Positions 58,716 through 64,000 of a DNA stretch of 64,000 nucleotides are shown here, in pieces. The DNA is from Alkalimarinus sediminis (GTDB lineage: Bacteria; Pseudomonadota; Gammaproteobacteria; Pseudomonadales; Oleiphilaceae). The translations under genes and the position numbers were made by a program. The notes below the pieces were generated by a model. The model saw nothing but the letters and a program-made list of their open reading frames with translations. It was not told the DNA's origin and did not search any database. How positions within the stretch are numbered: position 1 is the first letter of the stretch; each line of letters begins with the position of its first letter. Location: assembly GCF_026427595.1 (NCBI RefSeq), contig NZ_CP101527.1, positions 629,001-693,000 of the forward strand, in the 5' to 3' direction.

Positions 58716-60095
58716 ATGGATTTGTTATTCCGGATTGAACCTATTCAATCTGAAGGTACTTCACCGCAAGACTCTTCACTATCAAACTTATCACCCGATA
58801 ATCGCTTTTCGTTTTCTCCATTGGGTGGGCTTATTGGGCGATCCTCTGAATGTGACTGGGTTTTAACAGACCCTGACAGACGCTTATCAGGCAAGCATGC
58901 CGCCATTTCCTTTGAAAATAATCGATATCAAATAACAGATCTCAGTACTAATGGGCTTTTTGTTAATAATCATAGTAAGCCGCTAGGCAAGGGAAGTACC
59001 CACGCCATTGAAAGCGGCGACCGGTTTCTAATGGGACCATTTTGTATTGTTGCTAGCATTGCCAATGCGGTGACTCGTTCAGACGTTGATCTGACTGAGA
59101 TGTTAACCGATGCAGATATTCAGCCCTCTATTGAAAGCGCACCCGTTACTGATGAGATCTCATTCGTTGAGCACGAACACCTTATTAGCTCTAGTGAGAC
59201 CACTCTGGATGATATTCTCGATTTCCCTGCGCCAATACAAGAGCAGCGTAATGAAGCGGATGCGTTGCCACCCATGCCAGAAAGCAGACAATCTAACCCC
59301 TCAACGCAAGCAATACAGACTACACAAACAAAACCTGTTGAACAAACGAATAACCCTACCCAGGCGGCTCCAATCTCTACAGCAGAGAATCGTTCTGAGC
59401 GACCTGAAAAGATACGCCCCAATACGAATACAGCATTAACGTCTAATTACGATAATGACCAAACCGCACTGTTACAATTTTTGCGTGGCGCAGGGTTAGA
59501 TGAAGACCTGCTCACACACCCTGATATTAATAAACTCATGTTCAACTTTGGCGCGTTATTGAAACGCTACACAGGTGAGTTGATGAAACTAATGGGTGAA
59601 AGAAGTAGTTATAAAAACCAGTGTCGATTAGATATGACTTTGGTAGCCCCTGAGCACAATAACCCATTGAAATACTGTGTAAATGAAGTTCAGGCACTGC
59701 GTGAAATTATTATCTCTCCTCAGCGCGAGAATCTATCGGGTGGAGAGGCTATTGAGTCTGCTATGGAAGACATTCGAGATCACTTCTCCCGTGTAGAAAA
59801 AGGTTATCAAGGGACATTATCCTCATTGATCGACTTCTTGAGTATGACCAATGGCAAGGCGGACTCTTCGACCATAACCCCTAATAAAAAGCAGCCCACA
59901 CAGAATTTATCTAATAAGCCTTGGCATTACCGTAAACGGATAAAACAGCTGCAACAAAAAACGGAACAGTTGAAAGACCCGGGGTACTACTCCGATGAGT
60001 TTTTCTCGCCACGCTTTGCCTATTTTTATCAAAACCCCGAACGTGCAGGCCTTCACCTGAATTCAGCTAAGGCTGAGGCAGAGAGTACCGATTAG
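58716..60095 (+). CDS. tagH: Type VI secretion FHA-domain protein TagH
   Basis: The 459-residue protein has an N-terminal FHA domain (about residues 20-110): GLIGRSSECDWVL, LSGKHAAISFENNRYQI and LSTNGLFVNN give the canonical Gly-Arg, Ser-His and Asn residues that bind phosphothreonine. A proline/threonine/glutamine-rich linker covers about residues 140-245. The C-terminal TagH domain contains LLQFLRGAGLDEDLL, FGALLKRYTGELM and ESAMEDIRDHFSRVEKGYQG. FHA proteins control type VI assembly after threonine phosphorylation. It is the first gene of the cluster. Confidence 0.93.
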   Translation: MDLLFRIEPIQSEGTSPQDSSLSNLSPDNRFSFSPLGGLIGRSSECDWVLTDPDRRLSGKHAAISFENNRYQITDLSTNGLFVNNHSKPLGKGSTHAIESGDRFLMGPFCIVASIANAVTRSDVDLTEMLTDADIQPSIESAPVTDEISFVEHEHLISSSETTLDDILDFPAPIQEQRNEADALPPMPESRQSNPSTQAIQTTQTKPVEQTNNPTQAAPISTAENRSERPEKIRPNTNTALTSNYDNDQTALLQFLRGAGLDEDLLTHPDINKLMFNFGALLKRYTGELMKLMGERSSYKNQCRLDMTLVAPEHNNPLKYCVNEVQALREIIISPQRENLSGGEAIESAMEDIRDHFSRVEKGYQGTLSSLIDFLSMTNGKADSSTITPNKKQPTQNLSNKPWHYRKRIKQLQQKTEQLKDPGYYSDEFFSPRFAYFYQNPERAGLHLNSAKAEAESTD

Positions 60096-60182: not shown

Positions 60183-60662
60183 ATGGTCATGAACTTAAAA
60201 CTTAAATTCCCAGTGTGGGCACTTGTGGGCATTATGTTATGTAGTGTGGTAAGTGGTTGTGCCAGTTGGGTTGAGTCTGATATCACGAAACTGGATATTC
60301 GTTTCACAGCATCAGGAGATTTAAACCCTGATATATCAGGTCGACCATCGCCATTGGTAGTACGCTTCTATGAGATAAAAGCCCCATCGATTTTTGAAAA
60401 CGCTGATTTTTATAGTCTATATGATTACGGTAAAGAGACTCTTGGGCCTGATTTTGTCGCAATGGAAGAGATGACACTTAAACCTGGAGAGCAACTCGAT
60501 ATGAAATTGGCGCTTCAGAATGACACTAATTATATCGCCATTTTAGGTGCTTATCGCGATATCAATAGTGCAAATTGGAAGCGTGTATTCCCTGTTTCAT
60601 TGAAGAACAAAAATAGAAAAAACATCGTATTTGCAGGCAGCAGCATAGACGTACTCGAGTAG
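60183..60662 (+). CDS. tssJ: Type VI secretion outer membrane lipoprotein TssJ
   Basis: The 159-residue protein has a lipoprotein signal ending VVSGC, with the modified cysteine at about residue 26. The TssJ transthyretin-like fold follows (DLNPDISGRPSPLVVRFYEIKAPSIFENADFYSLYDYG and NYIAILGAYRDINSANWKRVFPV). TssJ anchors the membrane complex to the outer membrane and binds TssM. It lies 87 bp after tagH and 19 bp before tssK. A second ATG at 60189 is an alternative start. Confidence 0.94.
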   Translation: MVMNLKLKFPVWALVGIMLCSVVSGCASWVESDITKLDIRFTASGDLNPDISGRPSPLVVRFYEIKAPSIFENADFYSLYDYGKETLGPDFVAMEEMTLKPGEQLDMKLALQNDTNYIAILGAYRDINSANWKRVFPVSLKNKNRKNIVFAGSSIDVLE

Positions 60663-60681: not shown

Positions 60682-62025
60682 ATGGATAAGGTGATCTGGA
60701 GCGAAGGCATGTTTCTTCGCCCTCAGCATTTTCAACAATTTGAACGATATATTGAAGATCAGGCGATTTCAAGAAATCGCTATGTAACCCCTTACTCTTG
60801 GGGTATTAAAAAGCTAGAAATTGATTCGTCGTTGCTGTCGCTGGGTAAGGTGGCCATAGTATATGCCGAGGGCATTTTCCCTGATGGCAGTTTGTTTAAG
60901 GTGACTTATGACCCAGCCTTTCCATTAGTCGTTCAAGTGACCAAAGGGCAAGAGAATCAACTAATCTATATGACGATTCCTCCGCAAATAAAAGGGGCAG
61001 TAGTAAGCGATGACCCCGAGCATAGTCAAGGCGTTCGTTATCGACAGAAACATCAGGATATTAGAGATAGTCATGGCATTAATAATGACCGAGTTTACCC
61101 CATCGCAACGGGGGACCTAAACGTACGGTTAGTTGCTGAAGATCAACTTGAAGACTCGTTTATCGCCCTGCCCATTGCGCAGGTAGGCTCTATTGGAGAT
61201 GACGGTGGGCTAATACTAAACCCATTATTTAGTGCGCCAGCGATTGATATGTCTGTTTATAGTGAATGTCTTTCTAGTTTGGGTGACCTCATTCTATTGG
61301 TCCAAGAAAAAGCAAAACAGTTGGCTGCCACGATCGAAAGTGGAATGAGCAATGGCGCTGGTACGGTAGTAGACCTGTTGATGTTAAAAGCACTTAATAG
61401 TTGGGGAGCAGCGCTTGCTATTTTGATCAAGCAAACGCCGCTTCACCCCTATGAACTGTTTAAGCAGCTCTCTATTTTTATTGCAGAAATTAGCACGTTT
61501 ACGCGATCAGAACGAGTGGCTGTAAAGGGTGTTGAGTATAGTCATATTGAGGCATATCAGGGGCTACTTACTCTCATAGAAAACGCTAGAGTTTTAGTTT
61601 CAACATCGTTCAAGAGTAAAGCGACATCATTACCCATACAGCGTAAGAAGTTTGGTATCAGTGTTATCGGGCTGCCTACAGAGTCGATGGTTAATGATGA
61701 GTTTATTTTGGCGATCAAGGCAGACTTATCAGCAGAGGTGATTCGTAAGCTAGTTAGCAGCAAGCTAAAAGCCGGTAGTATCGACAATATAAAAGATTTG
61801 GTTAATCTACAGCTGCCAGGGTGTATTAAGGAGCTTCTACCGGTTACCCCTCGTCAAATCCCTTACCATGCGGGTATGCATTATTTTAGGTTATTACCCG
61901 ATGCAGAGATGAAAGCGAGCATTAAGGCCTCAAATGGTATTGGGTTGCATGTATCGGGTGATGTACCAGGGTTGGCGTTAGAGTTTTGGGTTGTGCCTTC
62001 TGAGTCTGAGCAGGCGAAGAAATAG
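60682..62025 (+). CDS. tssK: Type VI secretion baseplate protein TssK
   Basis: TssK links the baseplate to the membrane complex. The 447-residue protein starts with the family signature VIWSEGMFLRPQHFQQFERYIE. Typical internal segments include LHPYELFKQL near residue 255 and a C-terminal domain with PRQIPYHAGMHYFRL and LEFWVVPSE. The length is normal. The stop is 58 bp upstream of the preferred tssL ATG. Confidence 0.95.
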   Translation: MDKVIWSEGMFLRPQHFQQFERYIEDQAISRNRYVTPYSWGIKKLEIDSSLLSLGKVAIVYAEGIFPDGSLFKVTYDPAFPLVVQVTKGQENQLIYMTIPPQIKGAVVSDDPEHSQGVRYRQKHQDIRDSHGINNDRVYPIATGDLNVRLVAEDQLEDSFIALPIAQVGSIGDDGGLILNPLFSAPAIDMSVYSECLSSLGDLILLVQEKAKQLAATIESGMSNGAGTVVDLLMLKALNSWGAALAILIKQTPLHPYELFKQLSIFIAEISTFTRSERVAVKGVEYSHIEAYQGLLTLIENARVLVSTSFKSKATSLPIQRKKFGISVIGLPTESMVNDEFILAIKADLSAEVIRKLVSSKLKAGSIDNIKDLVNLQLPGCIKELLPVTPRQIPYHAGMHYFRLLPDAEMKASIKASNGIGLHVSGDVPGLALEFWVVPSESEQAKK

Positions 62026-62083: not shown

Positions 62084-63127
62084 ATGGACAGTTTATATAA
62101 AGCCGAGATCGATCATAGTGTGGCAGAGATAATGCCCATAACAGGGAGTGATCGCGACGCCAGATTAGAAGTGTTATCTGAAAAAACCGTGGTACAGATT
62201 CAACCTGATATGGCGATTGAGCCTCTGAGAGACGTTGGCTCAGCAGGTATTATGGAAGAGCATAATACCTACGAAGGGTTGGATGAACAAACCGTAGTAT
62301 TAAATGCAAAACCCCAAAACAATGATTGGGGTTATAAGGCTGAAGCGGTCTCTCCCCCTGATCAACTAAACGAATACTCACCCGGCTCACAACCCGCGAG
62401 TTCACATGCAGAAGGCACTCATGAAACGGCCAATAGGCGAGTGGTGAATGAGAACTTATTAGTCAGCTGCGCCATGCCGCTAATACATCATGCGATGAGT
62501 TTAGCGAATAGTGCCGAACCTGCGGACATTAATGCTGTTAGGTCTCGTTTGATATCTGACATGGGACGGTTTCAGAATAAAGCAGAGCAGTGTATTCGTG
62601 ATCAGCGCCATATTGTGGCGGCACGCTACTTGTTGTGTTCTTTTGTTGATGAAGTGATAGCCACCACGCCGTGGGGTGTTTCTCATCGGTGGGGGGCAGA
62701 AAGCTTGTTGAGTTATTTTCATAATGAAACCTATGGTGGCGATGGTTTTTTTACCCTGCTTGAACGGGCCATGCAGCAGCCTCAGCAATATTTAGACCTG
62801 CTAGAGCTGATGTATGTCTGCCTTTCTCTTGGCTTTGCAGGCCGTTATCGCGTTGATAAAAATGGAACTACTCAACTGGAAAGTATTCGTGAATCGATGA
62901 TGACGACCATTGCCAATAACCAAGCGCCCGACAAAAGAGGGCTTGTAGTGGGAGAAATCCACCATCAGGTAGAGAAAAAGAAAAGAGCAAAATGGCTTGC
63001 GCCGGTGGTTGTAGCAATGCTGCTATTAGCCAATACAGCGGGGTATTTAATTTTCTCGAATCAGATAGAGGCGCGTATGGACACTGCCTCGGAATATGTA
63101 CTTAGTGGCATTGCGATAACCAATTAG
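62084..63127 (+). CDS. tssL: Type VI secretion protein TssL with N-terminal extension
   Basis: The 347-residue protein ends with a TssL/DotU cytoplasmic domain: ARYLLCSFVDEVIATTPWG near residue 180, then WGAESLLSYFHNETYGGDGFFTLLERAM and LLELMYVCLSLGFAGRYR. A single C-terminal membrane segment (APVVVAMLLLANTAGYLIF) near residue 315 completes it. The first 125 residues are an acidic extension with two similar motifs, EKTVVQIQP (Thr35) and EQTVVLNAKP (Thr70). TssL N-terminal phosphothreonine is recognised by an FHA protein in Agrobacterium, so these threonines are candidates here. The ATG at 62084 has TAGGA upstream; earlier in-frame starts at 61991 and 62057 are less likely. Confidence 0.9.
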   Translation: MDSLYKAEIDHSVAEIMPITGSDRDARLEVLSEKTVVQIQPDMAIEPLRDVGSAGIMEEHNTYEGLDEQTVVLNAKPQNNDWGYKAEAVSPPDQLNEYSPGSQPASSHAEGTHETANRRVVNENLLVSCAMPLIHHAMSLANSAEPADINAVRSRLISDMGRFQNKAEQCIRDQRHIVAARYLLCSFVDEVIATTPWGVSHRWGAESLLSYFHNETYGGDGFFTLLERAMQQPQQYLDLLELMYVCLSLGFAGRYRVDKNGTTQLESIRESMMTTIANNQAPDKRGLVVGEIHHQVEKKKRAKWLAPVVVAMLLLANTAGYLIFSNQIEARMDTASEYVLSGIAITN

Positions 63128-63223
63128 CCACAAACAGAAAACTCTGGAATACGGCCTACTTAAAGGTCGACTTGTATTAATTTGCTTATATAAGCAACTA
63201 GCGGATCAAATGGAATTGAACGC

Positions 63224-64000
63224 ATGAAGTGGAAGGCAATTCGTTTTTTTAGTAAAAATCGAGAAGAGAGATCATCGAATGATCTCCCTGAGATGACCCT
63301 CTCAACCAAAGCGTACCAATCACTCTTTAAGCAGCAGATCAAGGCACTGAGTGAAACCTTTGGCGAGCAAAAAATAGCCTGCTTATTTAAGCAACCTTTG
63401 CATAAAAAAACAGTCTACTGTGTTTTAGAGTCTCCTCATGCCAACCTTACCGCACTGAGTGGTCATGCTTTGGCTGATGTAACCCCTCGAGTTAAAGGGC
63501 AGGTTACCCCCTCTCAAGATGGTTTAAATAGCTCAAGCTTTCCATACAGCCGATATACATTACCCTCATGGCATAGTGATGGTTCATCGCTCTACATGTC
63601 TCTGCACTTTGAAAATGAGGTCTACACCTCTAACTATTCATTTGAAGATACACTCCTACCGTTAATGGATACATTGCTCCCACCGATGGATTCACTGCGC
63701 GGCAGGCACCGAAATCAGTGTTTGGGCGGTATTATTATTTACCTTCATCGGCATGACCTTATTTCAGAAAGTGCACCGGCTTGGTTAAGCAAAATGGCTT
63801 CGTTTGTCGGGCAAGCATCTTTAAAAGCAAAACAGAAACTGCCGGTTTATATCGTATTAGAAGGCGTCGGCAGCAGTGAAACAATCACATTTGATAACGC
63901 ATCATCGAATAGCTTAACAATGCCTATCGGTATGTTCAGGGATGATGAGACCGTATCTGCTGAACAATTTGGACAATGGTTTTCTCAGGCCCAAGGCGAA
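63224..64000 (+). CDS. TssM (IcmF)-like protein, 5' part, with degenerate P-loop
   Basis: The frame is open from the ATG at 63224 to the end of the window (259 codons, no stop). Position after tssL and the segment LGGIIIYLHRHDLISESAPAWLSKMASFVG followed by KQKLPVYIVLEGVGS match the G-domain part of TssM, where NGVLLTLS...LPVYLLFTKCD is usual. The place of the Walker A motif is occupied by CVLESPHANLTALSG, which lacks GxxxxGK. The two or three N-terminal membrane segments of TssM are absent; the protein begins with basic MKWKAIRFFSKNREERSS. It is either a divergent TssM or a separate TssM-like protein ahead of the true one. The rest of the gene is needed to decide. Confidence 0.7.
   Translation, partial: MKWKAIRFFSKNREERSSNDLPEMTLSTKAYQSLFKQQIKALSETFGEQKIACLFKQPLHKKTVYCVLESPHANLTALSGHALADVTPRVKGQVTPSQDGLNSSSFPYSRYTLPSWHSDGSSLYMSLHFENEVYTSNYSFEDTLLPLMDTLLPPMDSLRGRHRNQCLGGIIIYLHRHDLISESAPAWLSKMASFVGQASLKAKQKLPVYIVLEGVGSSETITFDNASSNSLTMPIGMFRDDETVSAEQFGQWFSQAQGE

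Follow-up and report, generated by a model that had tools for sequence, protein, structure and literature searches.

TssM of type VI secretion is often assigned the role of an energy-using switch. Three transmembrane (TM) helices are described as the textbook state of the protein (PMC4374921, PMC4632598, PMC4256274), and EAEC TssM is described with three such helices and a periplasmic domain at 386-1129 (PMC4374921). The need for the TssM NTPase is disputed. Secretion in Agrobacterium needs an ATP-driven change of TssM: PpkA phosphorylates TssL at Thr 14, this leads to a TssM change that depends on ATP binding, and Fha then binds the phosphorylated TssL (PMC3953482). In Edwardsiella tarda, on the other hand, the ATPase and Walker A motif of TssM are dispensable (PMC4632598, PMC4589678). 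IcmF3 of the P. aeruginosa H3-T6SS is described as having no Walker A motif (PMC4589678).

The window analyzed here is a stretch of 64,000 nt from the genome of Alkalimarinus sediminis (G000:C1:629001-693000), and the sequence was followed beyond it into the genome. The tssM open reading frame begins with an ATG and stays open to the window end (Table 1); the complete protein has 1130 aa, and its gene ends at genome position C1:695616. The gene order at the locus is fha, tssJ, tssK, tssL, tssM, pppA, ppkA, hcp, where pppA and ppkA were named from their position together with PP2C phosphatase and Ser/Thr kinase domains, respectively. The operon context of tssM with tssJ, tssK, and tssL has the same order in all five genomes of the genus.

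Table 1 Features of the tssM locus in window coordinates.
Feature	Position	Strand	Basis or remark
fha/tagH	58716..60095	+	TIGR03354, 199 bits
tssJ, lipoprotein	60183..60662	+	TIGR03352, 128 bits
tssK	60682..62025	+	TIGR03353, 337 bits
tssL (DotU family), 347 aa	62084..63127	+	PF09850, 184 bits; TIGR03349, 179 bits
tssL-tssM gap, 96 nt	63128..63223	+	in-frame TM hairpin would not fit
tssM, residues 1-259	63224..64000	+	TIGR03348 and Pfam profiles above cut-off
Former P-loop (G1), CVLESPHANLTALSG, residues 66-80, replacing the GPPGxGKT stretch	63419..63463	+	MAFFT alignment
Former G3 region, LPSWHSDGSSLYMSLHFENEVYTS, without DxxG	63560..63631	+	placed by eye against CDWWFTxxAVLIDTAGRYT
Former G4 region, PVYIVLEGVGS, replacing PVYxxxTKxDLxxGF	63842..63874	+	hhalign of N-domain profiles and motif counts

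Profile searches identified the protein as TssM. It matched TIGR03348 with 452.1 bits (cut-off 388.15), the match running from residue 156 on, and remained below the cut-off of the type IVB IcmF model (NF038226; 190 bits against 1000). PF14331 was found at residues 158-325 (30 bits, cut-off 25), and PF06761, PF21070, and PF06744 exceeded their cut-offs with 148, 35, and 78 bits, respectively; the periplasmic IcmF-related, helical, and C2-like domains of TssM are all present. In the genus, the window-type gene passed the TIGR03348 cut-off in four of the five genomes, and the periplasmic domains were above their cut-offs in all four full-length TssMs. The TssMs of the other four members (G001, G002, G003:C9, and G004) did not pass the PF14331 cut-off; apart from the window TssM, the only PF14331 matches in the genus were a sub-threshold hit to the G001 TssM and a hit to a second TssM of G003. 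Whole-genome searches with PF06761, PF14331, and TIGR03348 returned one match each in the window genome, all of them to this gene, which is the sole TssM of its genome. Three sequences of solved structure matched, all of EAEC TssM and over the periplasmic part only. The first-pass annotation, made from the first 259 residues, had called the product TssM-like and had left room for an unrelated family; the profiles uphold the former and speak against the latter.

Hydropathy, from which alone membrane segments were called, revealed a single segment in the window TssM (residues 383-401), where three TM helices are the usual state; we identify it as the usual third TssM helix. Ahead of this segment the best 19-residue Kyte-Doolittle mean was 1.13 (range in the five genus members, 0.84-1.18), whereas in 16 TssMs of the same order used for comparison the two N-terminal helices reached 1.59-2.85; note that this method misses some helices, with zero segments detected in one protein described below (L145). 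The former P-loop lies at residue 69 in the window TssM and at 131-148 in the 16 comparison TssMs, a shift of about the length of the hairpin. Extension past 64000, which the first-pass annotation had proposed, thus bore out its view that the N-terminal helices are absent; the protein is not free of a membrane anchor, however, its one segment lying beyond the 259 residues on which that annotation was based.

Analysis of the motifs revealed that ESPHANLT stands in the window TssM where the P-loop is expected. In a MAFFT alignment, residues 66-80 occupied the P-loop columns of the 16 comparison TssMs with no gap, in agreement with the earlier observation that the P-loop is missing, and all five genus members read VLESPHAxLxxLSG at the G1 position. 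VLESPHA is invariant in the five members, and no other invariant run in the N-domain is as long; 187 of 10,000 column shuffles reached this length. The comparison TssMs contained G1 in 16/16, G3 in 15/16 (in the form DT[AS]GR; the sixteenth reads DPDGE), and G4 in 16/16. Of the genus members, 0/5 had G1, 0/5 had G4, and the G3 place was likewise devoid of its motif. The sole DxxG-like string among the genus members, located in G002 away from the G3 place, was taken as a chance occurrence.

Alignment of the two N-domain profiles with hhalign covered residues 147-326 (E 7.4e-5, probability 62%). The P-loop half alone scored 20.2 in local alignment (E 0.014; mean 12.4, sd 2.3, and maximum 22.2 for 200 shuffled alignments) and 4.9 in global mode (E 0.36), and the match of the stretch before residue 147 to the canonical domain is only suggestive. 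The structure model of the N-domain was of poor quality (pLDDT 46), and a PDB search with this model returned no match at E<=0.001; a G-like fold is predicted for the N-domain from sequence alignment only.

Relatives of the window TssM were present in four other genomes of the genus. Full-length proteins occur in G001, G003, and G004 (57%, 65%, and 49% identity, respectively), tssM being open over 1085-1144 codons in four of the five genomes, and G002 carries a piece. The window-type N-terminus was found in all four other genomes (44-67% identity), and the N-terminal architecture is the same in five of five; the G004 copy and that of the Hahellaceae MAG BB19 gave the same BLAST figures and were counted once. 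The G002 gene (L038:9139-10665) is broken after about residue 485-500 and matches only residues 1-500, with only a chance-level match to the window TssM past the break. The 20-kb stretch around it gave no match to pppA, ppkA, or hcp, and the G002 genome gave no Hcp match.

In a scan of the family, 88 of 121 genomes had a TssM match. By hand count over these 121 genomes, 81 near-full-length matches begin at profile position 1-4. With short C-terminal fragments (frames of 73-276 aa) and the split matches in G178 and G457 set aside, the late starters were four from the genus (191, 243, 299, and 418) and G010 at a contig end. A tree built from 29 sequences, which has long branches among divergent members, grouped the four full-length genus TssMs in a single clade (100/100), and G010 branched as its sister (100/99). 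G010 alone represents its genus, and its TssM is interrupted by the contig end. A search of 390 genomes of the order with the N-domain model A1 matched only the window's own protein; this sample cannot have included the remaining members of the genus, whose sequences had served to build the model. Viral contigs gave no N-domain match, and 275 plasmid records matched, all with less than 60% identity.

The N-domain also differed in its pattern of conservation. In 15 comparison pairs, which are not independent and have periplasmic identities of 40-75%, N-domain identity was always higher than that of the periplasmic part, by 17-27 points (mean +20.1), whereas in the six genus pairs it was 0 to 6 points lower (mean difference -3.2). 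Such a pattern would be expected from the loss of a catalytic constraint with a structural one kept, and the VLESPHA run is modest evidence that the face at the old P-loop has acquired another role.

Comparison with known proteins revealed which of these features are shared. The window TssM resembles canonical TssM (EAEC, Agrobacterium) in its place after tssJ-tssK-tssL, its periplasmic domains, its last TM segment, and its size, but lacks the TM1-TM2 hairpin and G1/G3/G4. IcmF3 is likewise a T6SS IcmF/TssM protein without Walker A; however, no IcmF-related or DUF1215 domain is reported in it (PMC4589678), whereas the window TssM has all periplasmic domains, a comparison that concerns domain content. 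A type IVB IcmF (L131; NF038226, 1158 bits) also has one TM segment by hydropathy and no N-terminal hairpin, but its P-loop is kept (GRTHQGKS). L136 (L155:8628-11855, G563), encoded in a tagH-tssJ-K-L-M cluster, is a T6SS TssM without the hairpin as well, again with a P-loop (GLPDVGKS). In the tree, taken with caution at this point, it was placed on a long branch among the comparison TssMs, apart from the window clade, and its hairpin loss is probably separate from that of the genus. L145 (L156:6168-9392, G818; 679 bits) is a T6SS TssM whose tssJ-K-L-M cluster also includes tssB and tssC, the sheath genes (five ORFs scanned, all T6SS); it has neither an N-terminal hairpin by hydropathy nor a strict P-loop; its topology is unsure, and unlike the window TssM it keeps GK within GSKNSGKQ and the NKxD motif.

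A class scan gave a match in at least 97 of 369 genomes, from which 16 stretches were picked for a late, split, or low-scoring match; this sample is not random and does not gauge rarity. Seven of the 16 had a P-loop and no hairpin (L131, L135, L136, L138, L139, L140, and L144), two had a hairpin and no P-loop (L132 and L133), one had a single N-terminal segment and no P-loop (L137), and three had neither hairpin nor strict P-loop (L142, L143, and L145); the N-terminus was unreadable in the remaining three (L134 and L146 at contig edges, L141 with a late frame). L132, L133, and L137 are IcmF-family proteins below the TssM cut-off and contain none of G1, G3, and G4. L142 and L143 show the same combined loss of hairpin and G1/G3/G4 as the window TssM; among the five ORFs scanned around each was a DotU gene, the others being housekeeping genes or unassigned, with no T6SS cluster seen. 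Among the sequences examined, hairpin loss together with erasure of G1/G3/G4 in a T6SS cluster occurred only in this genus. A search of the literature, mostly of papers outside subscription, returned no report of a T6SS TssM without the hairpin. Neither hairpin loss nor P-loop loss alone is unprecedented, and the genus TssM is a new form of a known subunit, in a system whose kind is not new. The complex is unusual all the same, as in one of the two readings that the first-pass annotation had offered, and the complete gene does encode a protein with neither P-loop nor N-terminal helices.

The window genome contains the 13 core T6SS genes as well as Fha, PpkA, and PppA. tssA, B, C, E, F, G, and clpV lie together in a second T6SS cluster at about C1:2278000-2288500, VgrG is located at C1:2647074, and there is one Hcp match; the T6SS is apparently complete by its genes. 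Two threonine motifs, EKTVV and EQTVV, lie in the N-terminal extension of TssL (window 62084-62450). This extension is very variable in length among the five genus genomes, but in each of them it carries SEKT[VI]V and, as a further motif, [ED][KQ]T[VIC][VI]; both are candidate PpkA/Fha phospho-sites.

We consider it probable that the sole TssM of this apparently complete T6SS acts as a single-pass, nucleotide-independent scaffold and that the system is regulated through phosphorylation of TssL. As judged from its sequence, the protein runs from a cytoplasmic domain through one membrane segment to the full set of periplasmic domains, and the alignments indicate that colinearity with the canonical G-like domain is kept despite the loss of the motifs, with VLESPHA as a new invariant block. 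The N-domain would bind no nucleotide and would instead form a fixed contact surface through which the membrane segment and the periplasmic arm that binds TssJ are linked to TssL and the baseplate, making TssM a fixed strut of cytoplasmic scaffold, one membrane segment, and an arm reaching TssJ. Activation would proceed via phosphorylation of TssL by PpkA at the two threonine motifs and binding of Fha, not via an ATP cycle of TssM. A more demanding version, in which the T6SS works although its TssM switch has been replaced, TssM is a pseudo-NTPase with a new conserved VLESPHA surface, the machine can do without the hairpin, and PpkA/Fha, through TssL, are the only gate on assembly, seems to us evenly poised between right and wrong. 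If this version is true, the genus is a natural test of whether type VI secretion needs nucleotide cycling by TssM, and an active system would be natural evidence that both this cycle and the TM1-TM2 hairpin can be dispensed with.

The strongest rival holds that the T6SS is being lost in the genus and that TssM is degenerating in a poorly functional machine. Since secretion in Agrobacterium is reported to need an ATP-driven TssM change (PMC3953482), the system here could be impaired, and a tssM broken in one of five genomes fits weak selection; the relatively fast evolution of the N-domain and the truncated tssM and lacking Hcp match of G002 point the same way. However, the latter two occurring together would also be expected if TssM serves the machine. 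The tssA-G clusters of G003 (L068) and G004 (L071) had no clpV ORF within them, but both genomes have a ClpV match over the cut-off on another contig (G003:C11, near the second T6SS, and G004:C43), and clpV may have been replaced there. Against decay, four of the five tssM genes are open over their full length, the other three proteins remaining 49-65% identical to the window's, and all four pass the periplasmic domain cut-offs. Hcp in three genomes and TssC in four are 96-99% and 96-97% identical, respectively, to those of the window genome. We thus regard decay as unlikely.

Far less probable is a split protein, with the hairpin and NTPase functions residing on a separate small protein. A 90-aa ORF with two predicted helices does lie in the second T6SS region (L067:3946-4218), but about 1.9 kb beyond clpV with two other ORFs between, and it is probably unrelated to the T6SS. 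The tssM loci of G000, G001, G003, and G004 were scanned for small ORFs (40-150 aa) containing two segments above 1.6; the latter three loci gave none and that of G000 a single antisense frame of 48 aa, and the PF14331 matches of the genus are limited to the TssMs named above. That the gene is a duplicate or accessory tssM beside a canonical one, placed by the first-pass annotation between tssL and the true tssM, is highly improbable and was rejected for the window genome: although G003 does carry a canonical TssM in addition, encoded on a different contig in a T6SS locus of its own, the genome-wide search with the three profiles revealed no second tssM here, downstream or elsewhere, and tssM is followed by pppA, ppkA, and hcp. 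A misread start or an assembly error before 63224 was rejected as having a negligible chance of concealing the hairpin, since the tssL-tssM gap and the 10 extra open codons upstream of the start (an open frame of 1140 codons vs the 1130-aa ORF) leave no space for it, and the same architecture recurs in four other genomes.

Paired adjacent TssM-like frames were observed in three further genomes (G178:C1:691161-697781, G457:C20:12894-19519, and G692:C12:118144-124749). In each pair a frame of about 1340 aa stands next to a shorter one, about 840-860 aa long, which matches the N-terminal half only and is perhaps TagP-like.
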